The notes under the pieces were generated by a model, which did no database searches, had not been told where the DNA came from, and saw nothing but the letters and a program-made list of their open reading frames with translations. A DNA stretch of 62,730 nucleotides, taken from positions 1-62,730 of the forward strand of contig NZ_NVEC01000034.1 in assembly GCF_002571225.1 (NCBI RefSeq), given 5' to 3'. Below, one piece after another: positions 10,688-60,797 of the stretch (positions are counted from its first letter, which is position 1; the number at the start of each line of letters is the position of its first letter). The position numbers were made by a program, and so were the translations under genes. This DNA is from Bacillus sp. AFS059628 (GTDB lineage Bacteria > Bacillota > Bacilli > Bacillales > Bacillaceae_G).

Positions 10688-10706
10688 TGCACACAATAGT
10701 TACGTT

Positions 10707-10815
10707 TTATCTTTCAAAATGCAATGCATTTTGCAGGAATTAGCACCTATTCAGTTTGTATAAACTGAGGTTGCTGGGCTTCAAAGGGCCGGTCCCTCTG
10801 CCTCTCTTGATAAAG
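10707..10815 (-). promoter_or_regulatory. SAM-I riboswitch (S-box)
   Basis: Read on the minus strand it contains the S-box blocks TTATCAAGAGAGGCAGAGGG, CCGGCCCTTTGAAGCCC, CAGCAACC, AGGTGCTAATTCCTGC and GAAAGATAA in canonical order. High S-adenosylmethionine would favour the terminator at 10655-10687 and switch off the hydrolase gene. Confidence 0.95.
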
Positions 10816-10965
10816 GTATATTTAATTTAAAGTTTGGAATTTTCTTTATAATAAAATTGTAATTCATTTCCTTTTTATGTGCAACACAAAATAGGTATTC
10901 ACCCAAATAAAGTTGCTCGCATATTGTAGCTTATGTAAATAGAATGCTGCGAAGGAGTGAGTGCA

Positions 10966-39440: not shown

Positions 39441-39716
39441 ATTAAAAACATCCTTTCAAATTTCCATACGTTAACTATAGCATACATCTTCTTGAGATTC
39501 AGTTTCGCTCTAGATTTGAACGTTTTTTAATGGGGTAACATCTGTTTGAAAGTGAATGATGGTGACAGAACATAATATGCACCATGATGAGACTGTGAGA
39601 AATAGATAGTTATTATGCGTATTGTTTTATTAGTTGCTTCTATATTGAATAGAAAAGTAAAGAACTTGTTATTTTACTAGAATAAGAGTAGACTTTGAAG
39701 TAGAAGAATACTAAAC

Positions 39717-39803
39717 ACATGGGAGTTTGTGGATGCAAACTGAGAGTATGACTAATCCGTCATTGACCATTTGAACCTGTTGGATAATGCCAGCGTAGGG
39801 AGA
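39717..39803 (+). promoter_or_regulatory. TPP riboswitch of thiM-thiE
   Basis: THI-box blocks are in order: GGGAGTTTGTGG, CTGAGAGTATGA, CATTGACC, TTGAACCTG, TGGATAATGCCAGCGTAGGGAG. It controls thiM and thiE in cis. The stretch 39441-39716 holds no other feature I can support. Confidence 0.95.
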
Positions 39804-39821
39804 GTGTAAAAACACATGTTC

Positions 39822-43157: not shown

Positions 43158-43250
43158 GTTCAGCGAGAAAGGCAAACTGATGGAAACATTAGGACGCAAA
43201 ACTACAGGAGCTAAGGTCGAAAGGCTATGCTAGCCAGTTACCGGACGGAT
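43158..43250 (+). promoter_or_regulatory. Cyclic di-GMP-I (GEMM-I) riboswitch
   Basis: Conserved blocks: GAAAGGCAAACT, TGGAAACATTAGGACGCAAA, ACTACAGGAGCTAAGG, then GCTATGCTAGCCAGTTACCG. This is the GEMM-I architecture with a GAAA tetraloop and its receptor. It precedes a terminator and a chemoreceptor gene. Confidence 0.95.
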
Positions 43251-45128: not shown

Positions 45129-45195
45129 TTGAAATGATTATACGTGCTTTTGTTTGTTCAATAAAATAAATCATGCTACAATGAAAACGAATTAA

Positions 45196-45278
45196 GGACC
45201 GGGGAGCCAATTGGCTGAGAGGATGTAAACAAACATCGACCCTCAACCTGATCTGGATAATGCCAGCGTAGGGAGTTA
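45196..45278 (+). promoter_or_regulatory. TPP riboswitch of thiamine-precursor transporter
   Basis: THI-box blocks: GGACCGGGGAGCC, TTGGCTGAGAGGATG, CATCGACCCTCAACCTGATCT (in two parts), GGATAATGCCAGCGTAGGGAG. Controls the downstream four-gene operon. Confidence 0.95.
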
Positions 45279-45323
45279 CTTAAAGTAATGTAGCATATGT
45301 TATTCTATAATAACTTGCATACA

Positions 45324-48263: not shown

Positions 48264-49037
48264 ATGAAATCTATAGAGCAAATAGTTGATTCGTTAACAG
48301 CTGATAATCTTGAAGAAGGAAAGTCCTTATTAAAAAATTATATTTTATTAATGAAGTATGGTATGGAACATCATGAATTAAAAGAAGAAGAAATGATAGA
48401 AGTTTTAAAGTGGGTTCAAGGCCGGGATCAATTGAGAAAAGATGTTCCAGAATTATGTGATTTACATTTAGTTAAAAAGTTTCAAGCGTTATTAGATGAA
48501 TTTATTCATTCTATAATTACAAATGGTTATGTGGAAGATGCGGTAGAAATTCTAGAGAGTGTATTAAAAAGTATGGGAGCAGTCGCTCATATTGTAAAAA
48601 TTATGTTTGTTGGCAAAAGAAAAGTTAATAGAAATTCTTTAGAAATGGTAGAAGAGTTAAAACGAGAGTGCTACAACTTAATGGAAAAGCGTGCTGCTGT
48701 CGGGTTGCATGCTCAAATCTTTCACGTTTTAGGTTTCGTTCATTCGATTCAGTTTGATTTAGAAGAAAGGTCACAGGAACATGGGCGAAGTGTAATAGGA
48801 TTTTTAACAGATTTTAAAACGAATGAATTGAAGTCTGTGCAACAATTTCAAACTGAAGATCATATCCCAGAAGTGAAAAATATAGTGAGTAAAGAGTATG
48901 GGATAGAATTACAAAGAAGAATTTATATGTGGAAATCGTTAACAATTATCTTTACAAGTCCATATGCATTAGAAAAGATGTATAAAGAAATTTATGCAGA
49001 GAACGATAAAACGGAGAAGGAACAAAAAGAACAATAG
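48264..49037 (+). CDS. Uncharacterised helical protein, 257 aa
   Basis: No family recognised. It is hydrophilic and predicted almost entirely helical, without signal peptide or membrane segment, ending in a Lys/Glu-rich tail (DKTEKEQKEQ). The RBS GGGGGAG precedes the ATG. It sits between the thiZ terminator and the ABC-F leader. The gene is a single unit in good Bacillus codon style, so it is likely real, but nothing in the sequence fixes its role. Confidence 0.8.
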   Translation: MKSIEQIVDSLTADNLEEGKSLLKNYILLMKYGMEHHELKEEEMIEVLKWVQGRDQLRKDVPELCDLHLVKKFQALLDEFIHSIITNGYVEDAVEILESVLKSMGAVAHIVKIMFVGKRKVNRNSLEMVEELKRECYNLMEKRAAVGLHAQIFHVLGFVHSIQFDLEERSQEHGRSVIGFLTDFKTNELKSVQQFQTEDHIPEVKNIVSKEYGIELQRRIYMWKSLTIIFTSPYALEKMYKEIYAENDKTEKEQKEQ

Positions 49038-49104
49038 AGAATAGAATATAAAAGAGTAGTTTATACTCTTAATATAACAAATGTTAAAGGAGTGAAAGGA
49101 TAAA

Positions 49105-49143
49105 ATGACTTTATCAACTGTTCTTCAAATGGTTTTAGCTTGA
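49105..49143 (+). CDS. Leader peptide of ABC-F gene
   Basis: 12-codon ORF encoding MTLSTVLQMVLA, with AAAGGAG and AAAGGA sites just upstream. Its 3' end (GTT TTA GCT TGA) forms the 5' arm of a stem whose partner is at 49175-49182. The layout matches regulatory leaders of antibiotic-responsive ABC-F and erm genes, in which a stalled ribosome changes RNA folding. Too short for normal gene finding. Confidence 0.7.
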   Translation: MTLSTVLQMVLA

Positions 49144-49263
49144 TAAGGGAGAAGTCTGCCCATTTTTAACGATTAAGCTAAATTGAAGACAGCAGGTAAA
49201 GAACCTTAATCCTTTTTTACGATAATATGTAATGGGTAAGGTGTATTCACCTTACCCATTTTT
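49134..49263 (+). promoter_or_regulatory. Transcription attenuator of ABC-F gene
   Basis: Stem A: TTTAGCTT (49134-49141) pairs perfectly with AAGCTAAA (49175-49182) and encloses GCCCATT (49158-49164). CCCATT (49159-49164) can pair with AATGGG (49231-49236), the 5' end of the terminator AATGGGTAAGGTG-TATT-CACCTTACCCATT (49231-49260) plus T run. Ribosome stalling on the leader would open stem A, release CCCATT and disrupt the terminator. Confidence 0.7.
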
Positions 49264-49342
49264 TATATGCACAATTAAATAAGGCGTTATACTGTTGCTT
49301 TCTCTATTTAGCTTATGAACCATAAGTAAAGGAGAGAAAAAC

Positions 49343-50887
49343 ATGAGTATATTAACAGTAGAAAATTTAAGTCATTCGTATGGTGAGAAGACCATTTTAT
49401 ATAATGCGTGTTTCCGACTATTAAAGGGTGAGCATGTTGGGTTAGTAGGTCAAAATGGAATTGGAAAATCAACATTGTTAAAAATTTTAACAGGAGAACT
49501 TATACATGATGATGGGAACATTGAGTGGTTTCCGCATGTGAAGGTAGGTTTCTTACAGCAGCATATGGATTTACAAGAGGGAATCACAGTTGAAGGATAT
49601 TTACAAAGCGCATTTTCGGATTTGTATACGATTGAATGCGAAATGTTAAAAATTGCAGAAGAAATGGATGGAGCAGAAGAAATAGAAAAACTGTTAGTAA
49701 GGTATGGAGAATTACAAACTATATTGGAAAGTTCTAATTTCTATCAAATTCATACAGAAATTGATGAAGTAGCAATCGGTTTAGGTTTACTTGAAATAGG
49801 TTTGAAAAAGGATGTTTCACAGTTAAGCGGAGGACAACGAACAAAGTTATTACTTGGGAAGCTCCTTTTAGAAAAAGCTGATATTTTATTGCTAGATGAG
49901 CCAACAAACTATTTAGATACAGCTCATATAGAATGGTTGCAATCGTATTTGAGATTGTATGAAAAAGCTTATGTGATTATTTCTCATAATGAAGTATTTT
50001 TAAACAGTATTACAAATATTATTTATCATCTAGAAGGAGGGAAAGTGAAGCGATACGTAGGGAATTATGAACAGTTTATGCAAAGTTACCAAGTGCAAAA
50101 GAAACAATTACAATCGGCGTATGTGAAACAACAAAAAGAAATCTCTCAGTTAGAAACATTTATTCAAAAAAATAAAATTCGAAAAGCGAAACAGGCTAAA
50201 AGCCGAGAGAAAGTATTGGAGAAAATGCAGAGGGTTGAAAAGGTTAATCCTGTAACTCGATCACGTTTTGATTTCAATGTTTATGAGGAGCCAGTGAGTC
50301 GTATACTACAAGCTGAGAAACTAAGGATAGGTTATAGTGATCCGTTATGTCCAGAGTTGAATTTACAAGTGAAAAAAGGAGAAAAGATAGCGATTGTTGG
50401 TCATAATGGAATTGGAAAAACGACGATGTTAAAAACGTTATTAGGCCAAATAAAACCGCTAAGTGGTTCAATTTCTATTGGAGAACGAGTAAATCCTGCT
50501 TATTTTGCCCAGGAAGAGTTTGCTTCAGAAATAACAACATTAGAGAAAATTTGGGCAGAACGACCAGATATGACAAAGAAAGAAGTGCGCCAAGCATTAG
50601 CGAAGTGTGGATTAAAAGAAGAACACGTATTAAAACCGATTCGTTTATTAAGCGGCGGGGAACAAACGAAAGTACGTTTATGCGAACTGATTGTAACGAA
50701 AAGCAATGTTTTAATTTTAGATGAACCAACTAATCATTTGGATATAGAAACAAAGAAGTCTTTACAAGAAGCGTTACAACAATATAAAGGAACAGTTTTA
50801 CTTGTCTCACATGAGCCTTCTTTCTATGAAGCGTGGATAACAAAAGTATGGAATATAGAAGAATGGAACGCTGAAAAATATGAATAA
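49343..50887 (+). CDS. ABC-F family ATPase, probable ribosome protection/antibiotic resistance
   Basis: 514 aa with two ABC domains and no membrane span. Walker A GQNGIGKST (about 37-45) and GHNGIGKTT (about 353-361); signatures LSGGQRTK and LSGGEQTK; Walker B DEPTNYLD and DEPTNHLD. The charged interdomain linker (about 245-310, rich in Lys/Gln) is the segment that reaches the peptidyl transferase centre in ABC-F proteins. The inducible leader-attenuator upstream is typical of ABC-F proteins that protect ribosomes from lincosamide, pleuromutilin or streptogramin drugs. Subfamily and drug are not assignable by eye. Confidence 0.88.
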   Translation: MSILTVENLSHSYGEKTILYNACFRLLKGEHVGLVGQNGIGKSTLLKILTGELIHDDGNIEWFPHVKVGFLQQHMDLQEGITVEGYLQSAFSDLYTIECEMLKIAEEMDGAEEIEKLLVRYGELQTILESSNFYQIHTEIDEVAIGLGLLEIGLKKDVSQLSGGQRTKLLLGKLLLEKADILLLDEPTNYLDTAHIEWLQSYLRLYEKAYVIISHNEVFLNSITNIIYHLEGGKVKRYVGNYEQFMQSYQVQKKQLQSAYVKQQKEISQLETFIQKNKIRKAKQAKSREKVLEKMQRVEKVNPVTRSRFDFNVYEEPVSRILQAEKLRIGYSDPLCPELNLQVKKGEKIAIVGHNGIGKTTMLKTLLGQIKPLSGSISIGERVNPAYFAQEEFASEITTLEKIWAERPDMTKKEVRQALAKCGLKEEHVLKPIRLLSGGEQTKVRLCELIVTKSNVLILDEPTNHLDIETKKSLQEALQQYKGTVLLVSHEPSFYEAWITKVWNIEEWNAEKYE

Positions 50888-60474: not shown

Positions 60475-60570
60475 AACTGCAAAAAACGAAAAGAATATAT
60501 AAAAATGAGAAAATTAGCTATTGTTTTAAAAAAGAATTTGTATTATGATAATCAACAAATTTATTTCGTT

Positions 60571-60797
60571 ATAACGATGAAAAAGGATTAGTACATGTTC
60601 AACCTTTTTAGCAGAGAGAGAATCCAACCGGCTGAAAGATTCTTAAAAAGGAGATATGGAACCTACCTTTGCGTTCTGCATATGCAGCGGGAGTTTCCCG
60701 TTATCAAAAAGAGAGCATGCGCAATTTTTGTGCATGAATCAGGGTGGTAACGCCGGCAAAGCTCGGTCCCTATTTAGGGACGCGGGCTTTTTTGTAT
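60571..60797 (+). promoter_or_regulatory. T-box leader (proline) of proS
   Basis: Stem I starts AACGATGAAAAAGGATTAGTA; a specifier-loop region GGAACCTACC contains the proline codon CCT (about 60662-60664). The T-box AGGGTGGTAACGCC is at 60741-60754, where TGGT fits a tRNA-Pro 3' end with discriminator A. The terminator AAGCTCGGTCCCT / AGGGACGCGGGCTT with T run is at 60759-60797. Uncharged tRNA-Pro would permit readthrough. Confidence 0.93.

Follow-up and report, generated by a model that had tools for sequence, protein, structure and literature searches.

A uORF-dependent attenuator candidate ahead of an ABC-F gene in Bacillus sp. AFS059628 and a sequence block common to many resistance leaders of Bacillota

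How is the ABC-F gene on contig NZ_NVEC01000034.1 of Bacillus sp. AFS059628 (assembly GCF_002571225.1) controlled, and by which signal? The 62,730-nucleotide (nt) stretch analysed here, called the window throughout, carries ahead of this gene a short upstream open reading frame (uORF), paired stems and an intrinsic terminator. An earlier note, made from the sequence alone, had read this arrangement as a ribosome-stalling switch in which a stall on the leader peptide opens a stem and frees an antiterminator strand. Our analysis indicates that the attenuator looks genuine, and the more interesting result is that its antiterminator strand belongs to a block common to many resistance leaders. The reading that we favour, and consider fairly probable, is a uORF-dependent transcription attenuator of the ABC-F gene that belongs to a large set of Bacillota resistance leaders organised around this one block and works through a polymerase pause and a ribosome stall.

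All features of the earlier note, namely the open reading frame (ORF), the 8-bp stem, the CCCATT strand, the terminator and the ABC-F start codon, sit where it had placed them (Table 1). The 12-codon ORF, preceded by a ribosome binding site (RBS), ends within the 5' arm of a perfect 8-bp stem, TTTAGCTT (49134-49141) with AAGCTAAA (49175-49182), and inspection of the sequence places a TAA directly after its stop codon. This 8-bp stem is the core of the inner stem P2, which grows to 11 pairs, one of them G-U. The terminator stem pairs AATGGGTAAGGTG (49231-49243) with CACCTTACCCATT (49248-49260) perfectly across 13 bp. The proposed complementarity between CCCATT (49159-49164) and the terminator is present, but it extends over eight pairs including one G-U, not six. 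Two elements were absent from the earlier description: an outer stem, P1, formed by 49109-49128 with 49183-49201, and the membership of the CCCATT strand in a 25-nt block, GGGAGAAGTCTGCCCATTTTTAACG, common to many resistance leaders. The leader folds at -61.5 kcal/mol, compared with a mean of -34.9 for shuffled sequences (z -7.4; reached by 0 of 200 shuffles). When perfect stems of at least 10 bp were surveyed on both strands of the window, only one of the 16 perfect terminators, that of the ABC-F leader, had an ORF of 8-20 codons preceded by a Shine-Dalgarno (SD) sequence and starting 40-170 nt upstream.

The closest homologue in the genome collection, from Paenibacillus selenitireducens (L001, 58% identity), has a matching leader: its uORF is MEILSTVLRRDLP, its 25-nt block is identical and its terminator differs in a compensatory way. 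A protein-first search of 198 genomes of the Paenibacillus order gave 19 window-type genes at E 1e-185 or better, and the block core GGnnnAGTCTG is found exactly within 400 nt upstream of 18 of them. The lone exception (L250) has only 175 nt of upstream sequence, and a second contig of the same genome ends in the block (L013). Among the control ABC-F genes, from which L154, L155 and L163 (exact core), L164-L166 (misplaced gene start, partial match) and L167 (a transporter) were left out, the exact core occurs in 0 of 16 and the core with one mismatch in 1 of 16 (L012). No leader of this type was seen by eye at the 50-53% homologues L002-L005, and none of the 51-52% homologues L148-L150 has the core at one mismatch or better.

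The uORF is intact in 24 of the 25 window-type leaders, with its stop 5 or 6 nt ahead of the block; in the broken case (L247) it ends early as MFFLSTVLKR. Its consensus is approximately M-x-x-L-S-T-V-L-x-R-x-L-A, a second form ends in V-V-F-Q-M-V-L-A (L048, L053, L054, L059), and the window peptide is a mix of both. Of the 24 leaders whose uORF is intact, 10 have the block in the uORF frame and 14 have it out of frame; the block is thus conserved at the RNA level, and conservation of the in-frame peptide GRSLPIFN was set aside as an explanation. In two further groups of ABC-F leaders (groups 2 and 3), the uORF runs through the block by eye. Judged by these counts of cores and intact uORFs, the leader is more than chance. 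The comparison with relatives had been set as a check by the earlier note, and peptide frame, stems and terminator are indeed retained.

These results bear on a simpler explanation, in which an ordinary terminator of an upstream operon happens to lie next to a chance short ORF and the ABC-F promoter is located after 49265. Such a reading would account for a gene that ends close upstream (48264-49037) and for the leader's terminator being the sole terminator-like site in 48950-49400. We regard it as very improbable, given the retention of the leader with its uORF in Paenibacillus, the occurrence of such an ORF at only one of the 16 terminators and the lack of a promoter-like site on the + strand between terminator and gene. 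The upstream gene encodes a protein of 257 aa with no Pfam match; the interval from this gene to the uORF contains neither a terminator nor a promoter-like site on the + strand, so transcription of the leader may start further upstream.

A structural alignment of 18 window-type leaders (A1) supports the paired elements. P1, P2 and the terminator together have 81.9% of cells paired, versus 36-46% with slid partners. A change on both sides is seen in thirteen pairs, a number that 2 of 500 shuffles reach (mean 7.6), and in 35 cells, a number that 0 of 500 reach (mean 12.2); further pair types stand out less, their number being reached by 33 of 500 shuffles. The terminator supplies most of the double changes (8 of the 13 pairs) and has 95.3% of its cells paired. 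P2 has 77.8% of cells paired and two pairs changed on both sides, and P1 is paired in 89.7% of cells in its lower part and weak in its upper part (62.8%).

The antiterminator pairing has 88.1% of its cells paired. We scanned 14-nt windows along 21 leaders against each leader's own terminator arm, and windows in the block are the best complement (mean -10.6 kcal/mol; -7 or better in 19 of 21), the next region averaging about -6.9. The CCCATT strand, which the earlier note had named as the partner of the terminator, is therefore the best complement of its 5' arm in the leader. Against their own terminator arms the blocks average -10.3, versus -3.9 against 60 unrelated terminators, a comparison of interrelated leaders in which 21 of 25 gave a terminator. 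The SD region of the uORF is in turn a complement of the 3' arm of the terminator (mean -9.4 kcal/mol, offset -60, window-type leaders), and this complementarity could add a second level of control.

A model of the attenuator can be drawn from these elements, with the pause, the stall and the induction at the window locus being inferred. RNA polymerase would make the uORF and pause in the block at a point where the 3' strands of P1 and P2 have yet to be transcribed, leaving the uORF open to a ribosome. Without drug, the ribosome would end at the TGA at 49141 and polymerase would proceed, so that P1 and P2 and then the terminator would form and transcription would stop; the structures of this step are supported by comparison, and its events are proposed. 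With drug, the ribosome would stall in the LSTV region and hold P1 and P2 open. The segment TGCCCATT of the block would then pair with AATGGGTA during terminator synthesis, giving readthrough into the ABC-F gene; the complementarity on which this step would depend is conserved.

Table 1 Features of the ABC-F leader and gene in the window
Feature	Position	Strand	Description
RBS region of the leader ORF	49086-49092 (AAAGGAG), 49095-49099 (AAAGG)	+	From the sequence; purine-rich stretch kept in relatives
Leader ORF (uORF)	49105..49143	+	MTLSTVLQMVLA, 12 codons; ATG 49105-49107, TGA 49141-49143
Outer stem P1	49109..49201	+	49109-49115 with 49195-49201; 49118-49128 with 49183-49192; from the minimum free energy fold
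Inner stem P2	49134..49182	+	49134-49144 with 49172-49182; contains the 8-bp stem and surrounds the block
Conserved 25-nt block	49147..49171	+	Putative site of polymerase pausing, guessed as 49157/49158, and putative antiterminator strand
Antiterminator pairing	49157-49164 with 49231-49238	+	8 pairs, one G-U; from complementarity
Intrinsic terminator	49231..49265	+	13-bp stem and T run
ABC-F gene	49343..50887	+	514 aa, short-linker kind; ATG at 49343

Several observations weigh against this model. At equilibrium, the terminator forms with probability 1.0 in every full-length case, whether the uORF is ribosome-covered or free, and when the 3' arm is not yet made a local pairing of 49203-49208 with 49237-49242, whose partner is not visible by eye in L001, beats the block pairing (maximum 0.18). 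The antiterminator pairing has no covariation in the aligned leaders, because the block is constant. The complementarity behind the mutually exclusive pairings claimed earlier is conserved, but thermodynamics gives no demonstration of a "complete" switch. As the terminator always wins at equilibrium, any switch must be kinetic, depending on the order and timing of folding, and this requirement gives a reason for a pause. The eight-position core with one mismatch is expected by chance in about 15% of 400-nt stretches and the exact core in less than 1% (our estimate), so that the exact counts weigh more. The + strand of 48950-49400 showed no promoter-like site. The block is not among the best terminator-arm partners in ABC-F group 2 leaders (n=11), and the short linker of the ABC-F protein differs from most resistance ABC-Fs. 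Finally, G2, T11 and G12 of the block match the elemental pause pattern G-10, Y-1, G+1 (PMC12288461), a weak fit, as chance readily matches a pattern of so few positions.

The block precedes Erm, Mef-like, Msr, Mph-like, RlmA-type, VmlR-type, Lsa-type, CatB-like and other ABC-F genes, and also lies in ribD leaders. Among 296 genomes of the Paenibacillus order, 31 contain the 25-mer at up to three mismatches, as do 16 among 299 from a Bacillales order; the reversed-sequence control gives 0 matches in both tables. A degenerate form of the block is found in 21 of 398 genomes of a phylum sample (control matches in 2 genomes), in 35 of 41 genomes of one family (control matches again in 2) and in 3 of 4 genomes of another, where one match (L091) falls within a coding stretch. 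The two order-level searches gave 47 fetched loci, 45 of which precede ABC-F, Mph-like, CatB-like or DUF1062 genes. The block lies ahead of a reference-family gene at 15 of the 23 loci of the phylum sample (one label, a VmlR call that is probably L083, is doubtful, being based on general ABC similarity) and at 54 of the 65 distinct loci of the 41-genome family (29 of 30 plus 29 of 40, after manual removal of five repeat matches); DUF1062 (1) and ribD, neither a resistance family, are part of these counts, and the reference proteins were themselves drawn from block loci and named by profile searches. Among them, Erm is above its broad profile cut-off; Mef-like, Msr, CatB/Vat-like, RlmA-type 23S methyltransferase and Lsa-type ABC-F are below cut-off or partial, and the Mph assignment comes from a 70-residue protein start. 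Profiles also named DUF1062, the APH family and a ribD-type deaminase, and the remaining reference proteins are ABC-F.

The arm of the strongest terminator pairs best with the block in leaders of VmlR (-11.2, n=20), of ABC-F group 3 (-7.4, n=10), of Msr (-6.8, n=11) and of Mph (-6.5, n=11), and in leaders of Erm, Mef and RlmA (n=7) the block and another segment are about equal. This comparison used part of the loci, four of which gave no terminator. Together with the window-type result, these pairings would fit the same attenuator with a block that serves purely as antiterminator strand, without any pause. We consider that version unlikely: the block letters are near constant while terminators and partners vary among families, the terminator pairing uses the 5' half of the block in VmlR leaders and the 3' half in the window, and the block is present in ribD leaders too. 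Family-weighted over 13 hand-made groups, its near-invariant letters are G2, G3, A4, G8, T9, T11, G12 and the T run; the loci outside the window-type and VmlR groups were found via the block, so this letter table overstates conservation. That G8, T9, T11 and G12 exceed the needs of pairing could also mean that the uORF leader is real and its block is a binding site for a protein or the ribosome, or plays another RNA-motif role. No Rfam family describing such a binder came up in the leaders scanned and there is no other direct evidence for one, and we hold this to be quite improbable.

The block is best read, on this analysis, as a combined polymerase pause and antiterminator element, and the recurrence of its core before unrelated resistance genes suggests a common way to hold RNA polymerase until the ribosome reports the drug. 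A broader proposal, on which we are evenly divided, is that a portable, sequence-conserved pause-plus-antiterminator box, approximately GGGANNAGUCUGYCC[A/U]UUUUUAA, serves as the shared core of leaders in Bacillota, both the drug-sensing ones of about ten resistance families and some ribD riboswitch leaders, with sensing peptide and resistance gene swapped around a polymerase-timing element that stays fixed.

It is above all vmlR, whose leader in B. subtilis is a lincomycin-induced attenuator (PMC9226507), that leads us to read the block as a pause signal. When the VmlR-like protein of L165 was searched against 299 genomes, 48 genes reached E 1e-130 or better, and their leaders carry the core at up to one mismatch in 47 and exactly in 43; the miss is L229, and the gene start of L227 is misplaced, yet its block was seen on reading. 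The VmlR-type uORFs include ATGATTAACTAA and ATGGATAACTAA, matching the published MIN and MDN uORFs (PMC9226507). Eight further loci were scanned with Rfam, and those of the VmlR type, three in number (L165, L218, L221), match RF02452, "Bacillus sRNA ncr1575", at 119-128 bits. Its consensus contains AUGAUUAAC and then GGaUUAgUCUgcCCAUU, that is, the MIN uORF and the block, which identifies RF02452 as the vmlR-type leader carrying the block. The strand opposite the uORF in RF02452 is the block, and it is opposite the uORF, within SL-1, that several NusG-independent pause sites of vmlR have been reported and proposed to allow time for uORF translation (PMC9226507). Rfam types ncr1575 as an sRNA; it is the vmlR-type attenuator leader, not an independent sRNA.

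Identity of the block with the NusG-dependent pause of vmlR was also considered and dropped. By the criterion used, such a pause has TTNTTT at -11 to -6 and an upstream hairpin; the VmlR leaders that were read have their TTATTT site after the block, and the T-rich part of the block is ATTTTT in the window and TTTTTT in some relatives.

The vmlR and window leaders have in common a uORF, an anti-antiterminator stem, a terminator, an ABC-F gene and the same block core. They differ in that vmlR has the three-codon uORF MIN, the 5' half of its block pairs with both uORF and terminator, and its NusG-dependent pause motif (TTATTT; PMC9226507) is separate and follows the block. The window leader scores 21.3 bits against RF02452 over 49073-49265, under the gathering score of 60. 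The tlrB (yxjB) leader of B. subtilis likewise has a leader peptide, a polymerase pause and a terminator in series, and RlmA-type genes carry the block at three surveyed loci; by the printed account, however, the tlrB pause is NusG-dependent and there is no separate antiterminator (PMC6851288). The likeness to ErmD-type leaders lies in the surveyed Erm, Mef-like, Msr and Mph-like genes, which have the block and, by eye, RLR in many of their leader peptides (L070 is without it). These leaders differ from the window in their peptide, the window uORF being of the LSTV type, and have one or two terminators. Leader peptides of this RLR kind go by the name ErmDL. R/K-X-R/K is a macrolide stall motif (PMC6851288).

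What the ABC-F protein resembles bears on the drug involved. It passes the NCBIfam profile NF000355 (ribo_prot_ABC_F; 404.1 bits, cut-off 380) and scores under the cut-offs of the named resistance subfamilies shown, including OptrA (302.5 bits, cut-off 1450). Two ABC domains are joined by an ABC_tran_Xtn linker, and the nearest solved structures are YbiT, first, then YheS, Uup and EttA, with PoxtA sixth. No extended antibiotic resistance domain was found in the linker and there is no insert relative to YbiT or YheS, which makes the protein one of the short-linker kind. Since OptrA and PoxtA likewise have short resistance domains between their ATPase domains, a short linker does not exclude a resistance role (PMC8987054).

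The inducing drug probably acts at the peptidyl transferase centre. Stalling by chloramphenicol and linezolid is best with a penultimate alanine and less with serine or threonine (PMC8987054). S-T is kept in most window-type uORFs, and a CatB-like gene (L014; 310.5 bits, cut-off 350) has a uORF of the window type, MLVLSTVRSRYLA. The S-T residues, the CatB-like gene with the same uORF type and the short ABC-F linker together form a weak pointer to a phenicol-like drug, and such an inducer is a weak guess that leaves the larger share of our expectation on other drugs.

Inducible resistance leaders have been studied singly in the literature searched, and no paper naming a shared block was found among titles and abstract openings, a coverage that leaves subscription journals mostly outside. 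If one element is shared by these families, unannotated inducible resistance genes could be found by the element alone, and the coordination of polymerase and ribosome in these leaders would be testable at one known position. For the ABC-F gene here, the comparison would provide a concrete list of ribosome inhibitors to try.

Rfam gave nothing at gathering level in the window leader and nothing in nine block loci, and neither megablast of the locus against plasmids nor the exact degenerate pattern against viral contigs gave a match. A distant leader search returned one 25-nt match (E=3) on a Lacticaseibacillus plasmid, with no gene listed downstream. Block matches classed as "other" are L013 (contig end), L051, L068, L072-L076, L079, L081, L113, L129-L131, L133, L134, L137, L140, L141, L170, L171 and L174, L130 being the same as L113; L075, L079, L134 and L137 may be real leaders. 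Eight copies of a block-like 23-mer, GGGAGAAGTCTACCCTTTTTTAG, lie in a single genome (L129 and other G467 contigs), twice 148 nt apart; they have the look of a repeat and not of a leader.

At L062, L102, L106, L110 and L132 the block lies between a flavin mononucleotide (FMN) aptamer and a ribD gene, and at L144 and L147 just its 3' half, GCACATTTTTAAC, is found in this position. Elsewhere in the window, Rfam matches at gathering level are a SAM, two TPP and one c-di-GMP-I riboswitch and one T-box, located at 10704-10816, 39709-39818, 43161-43245, 45190-45291 and 60568-60774.
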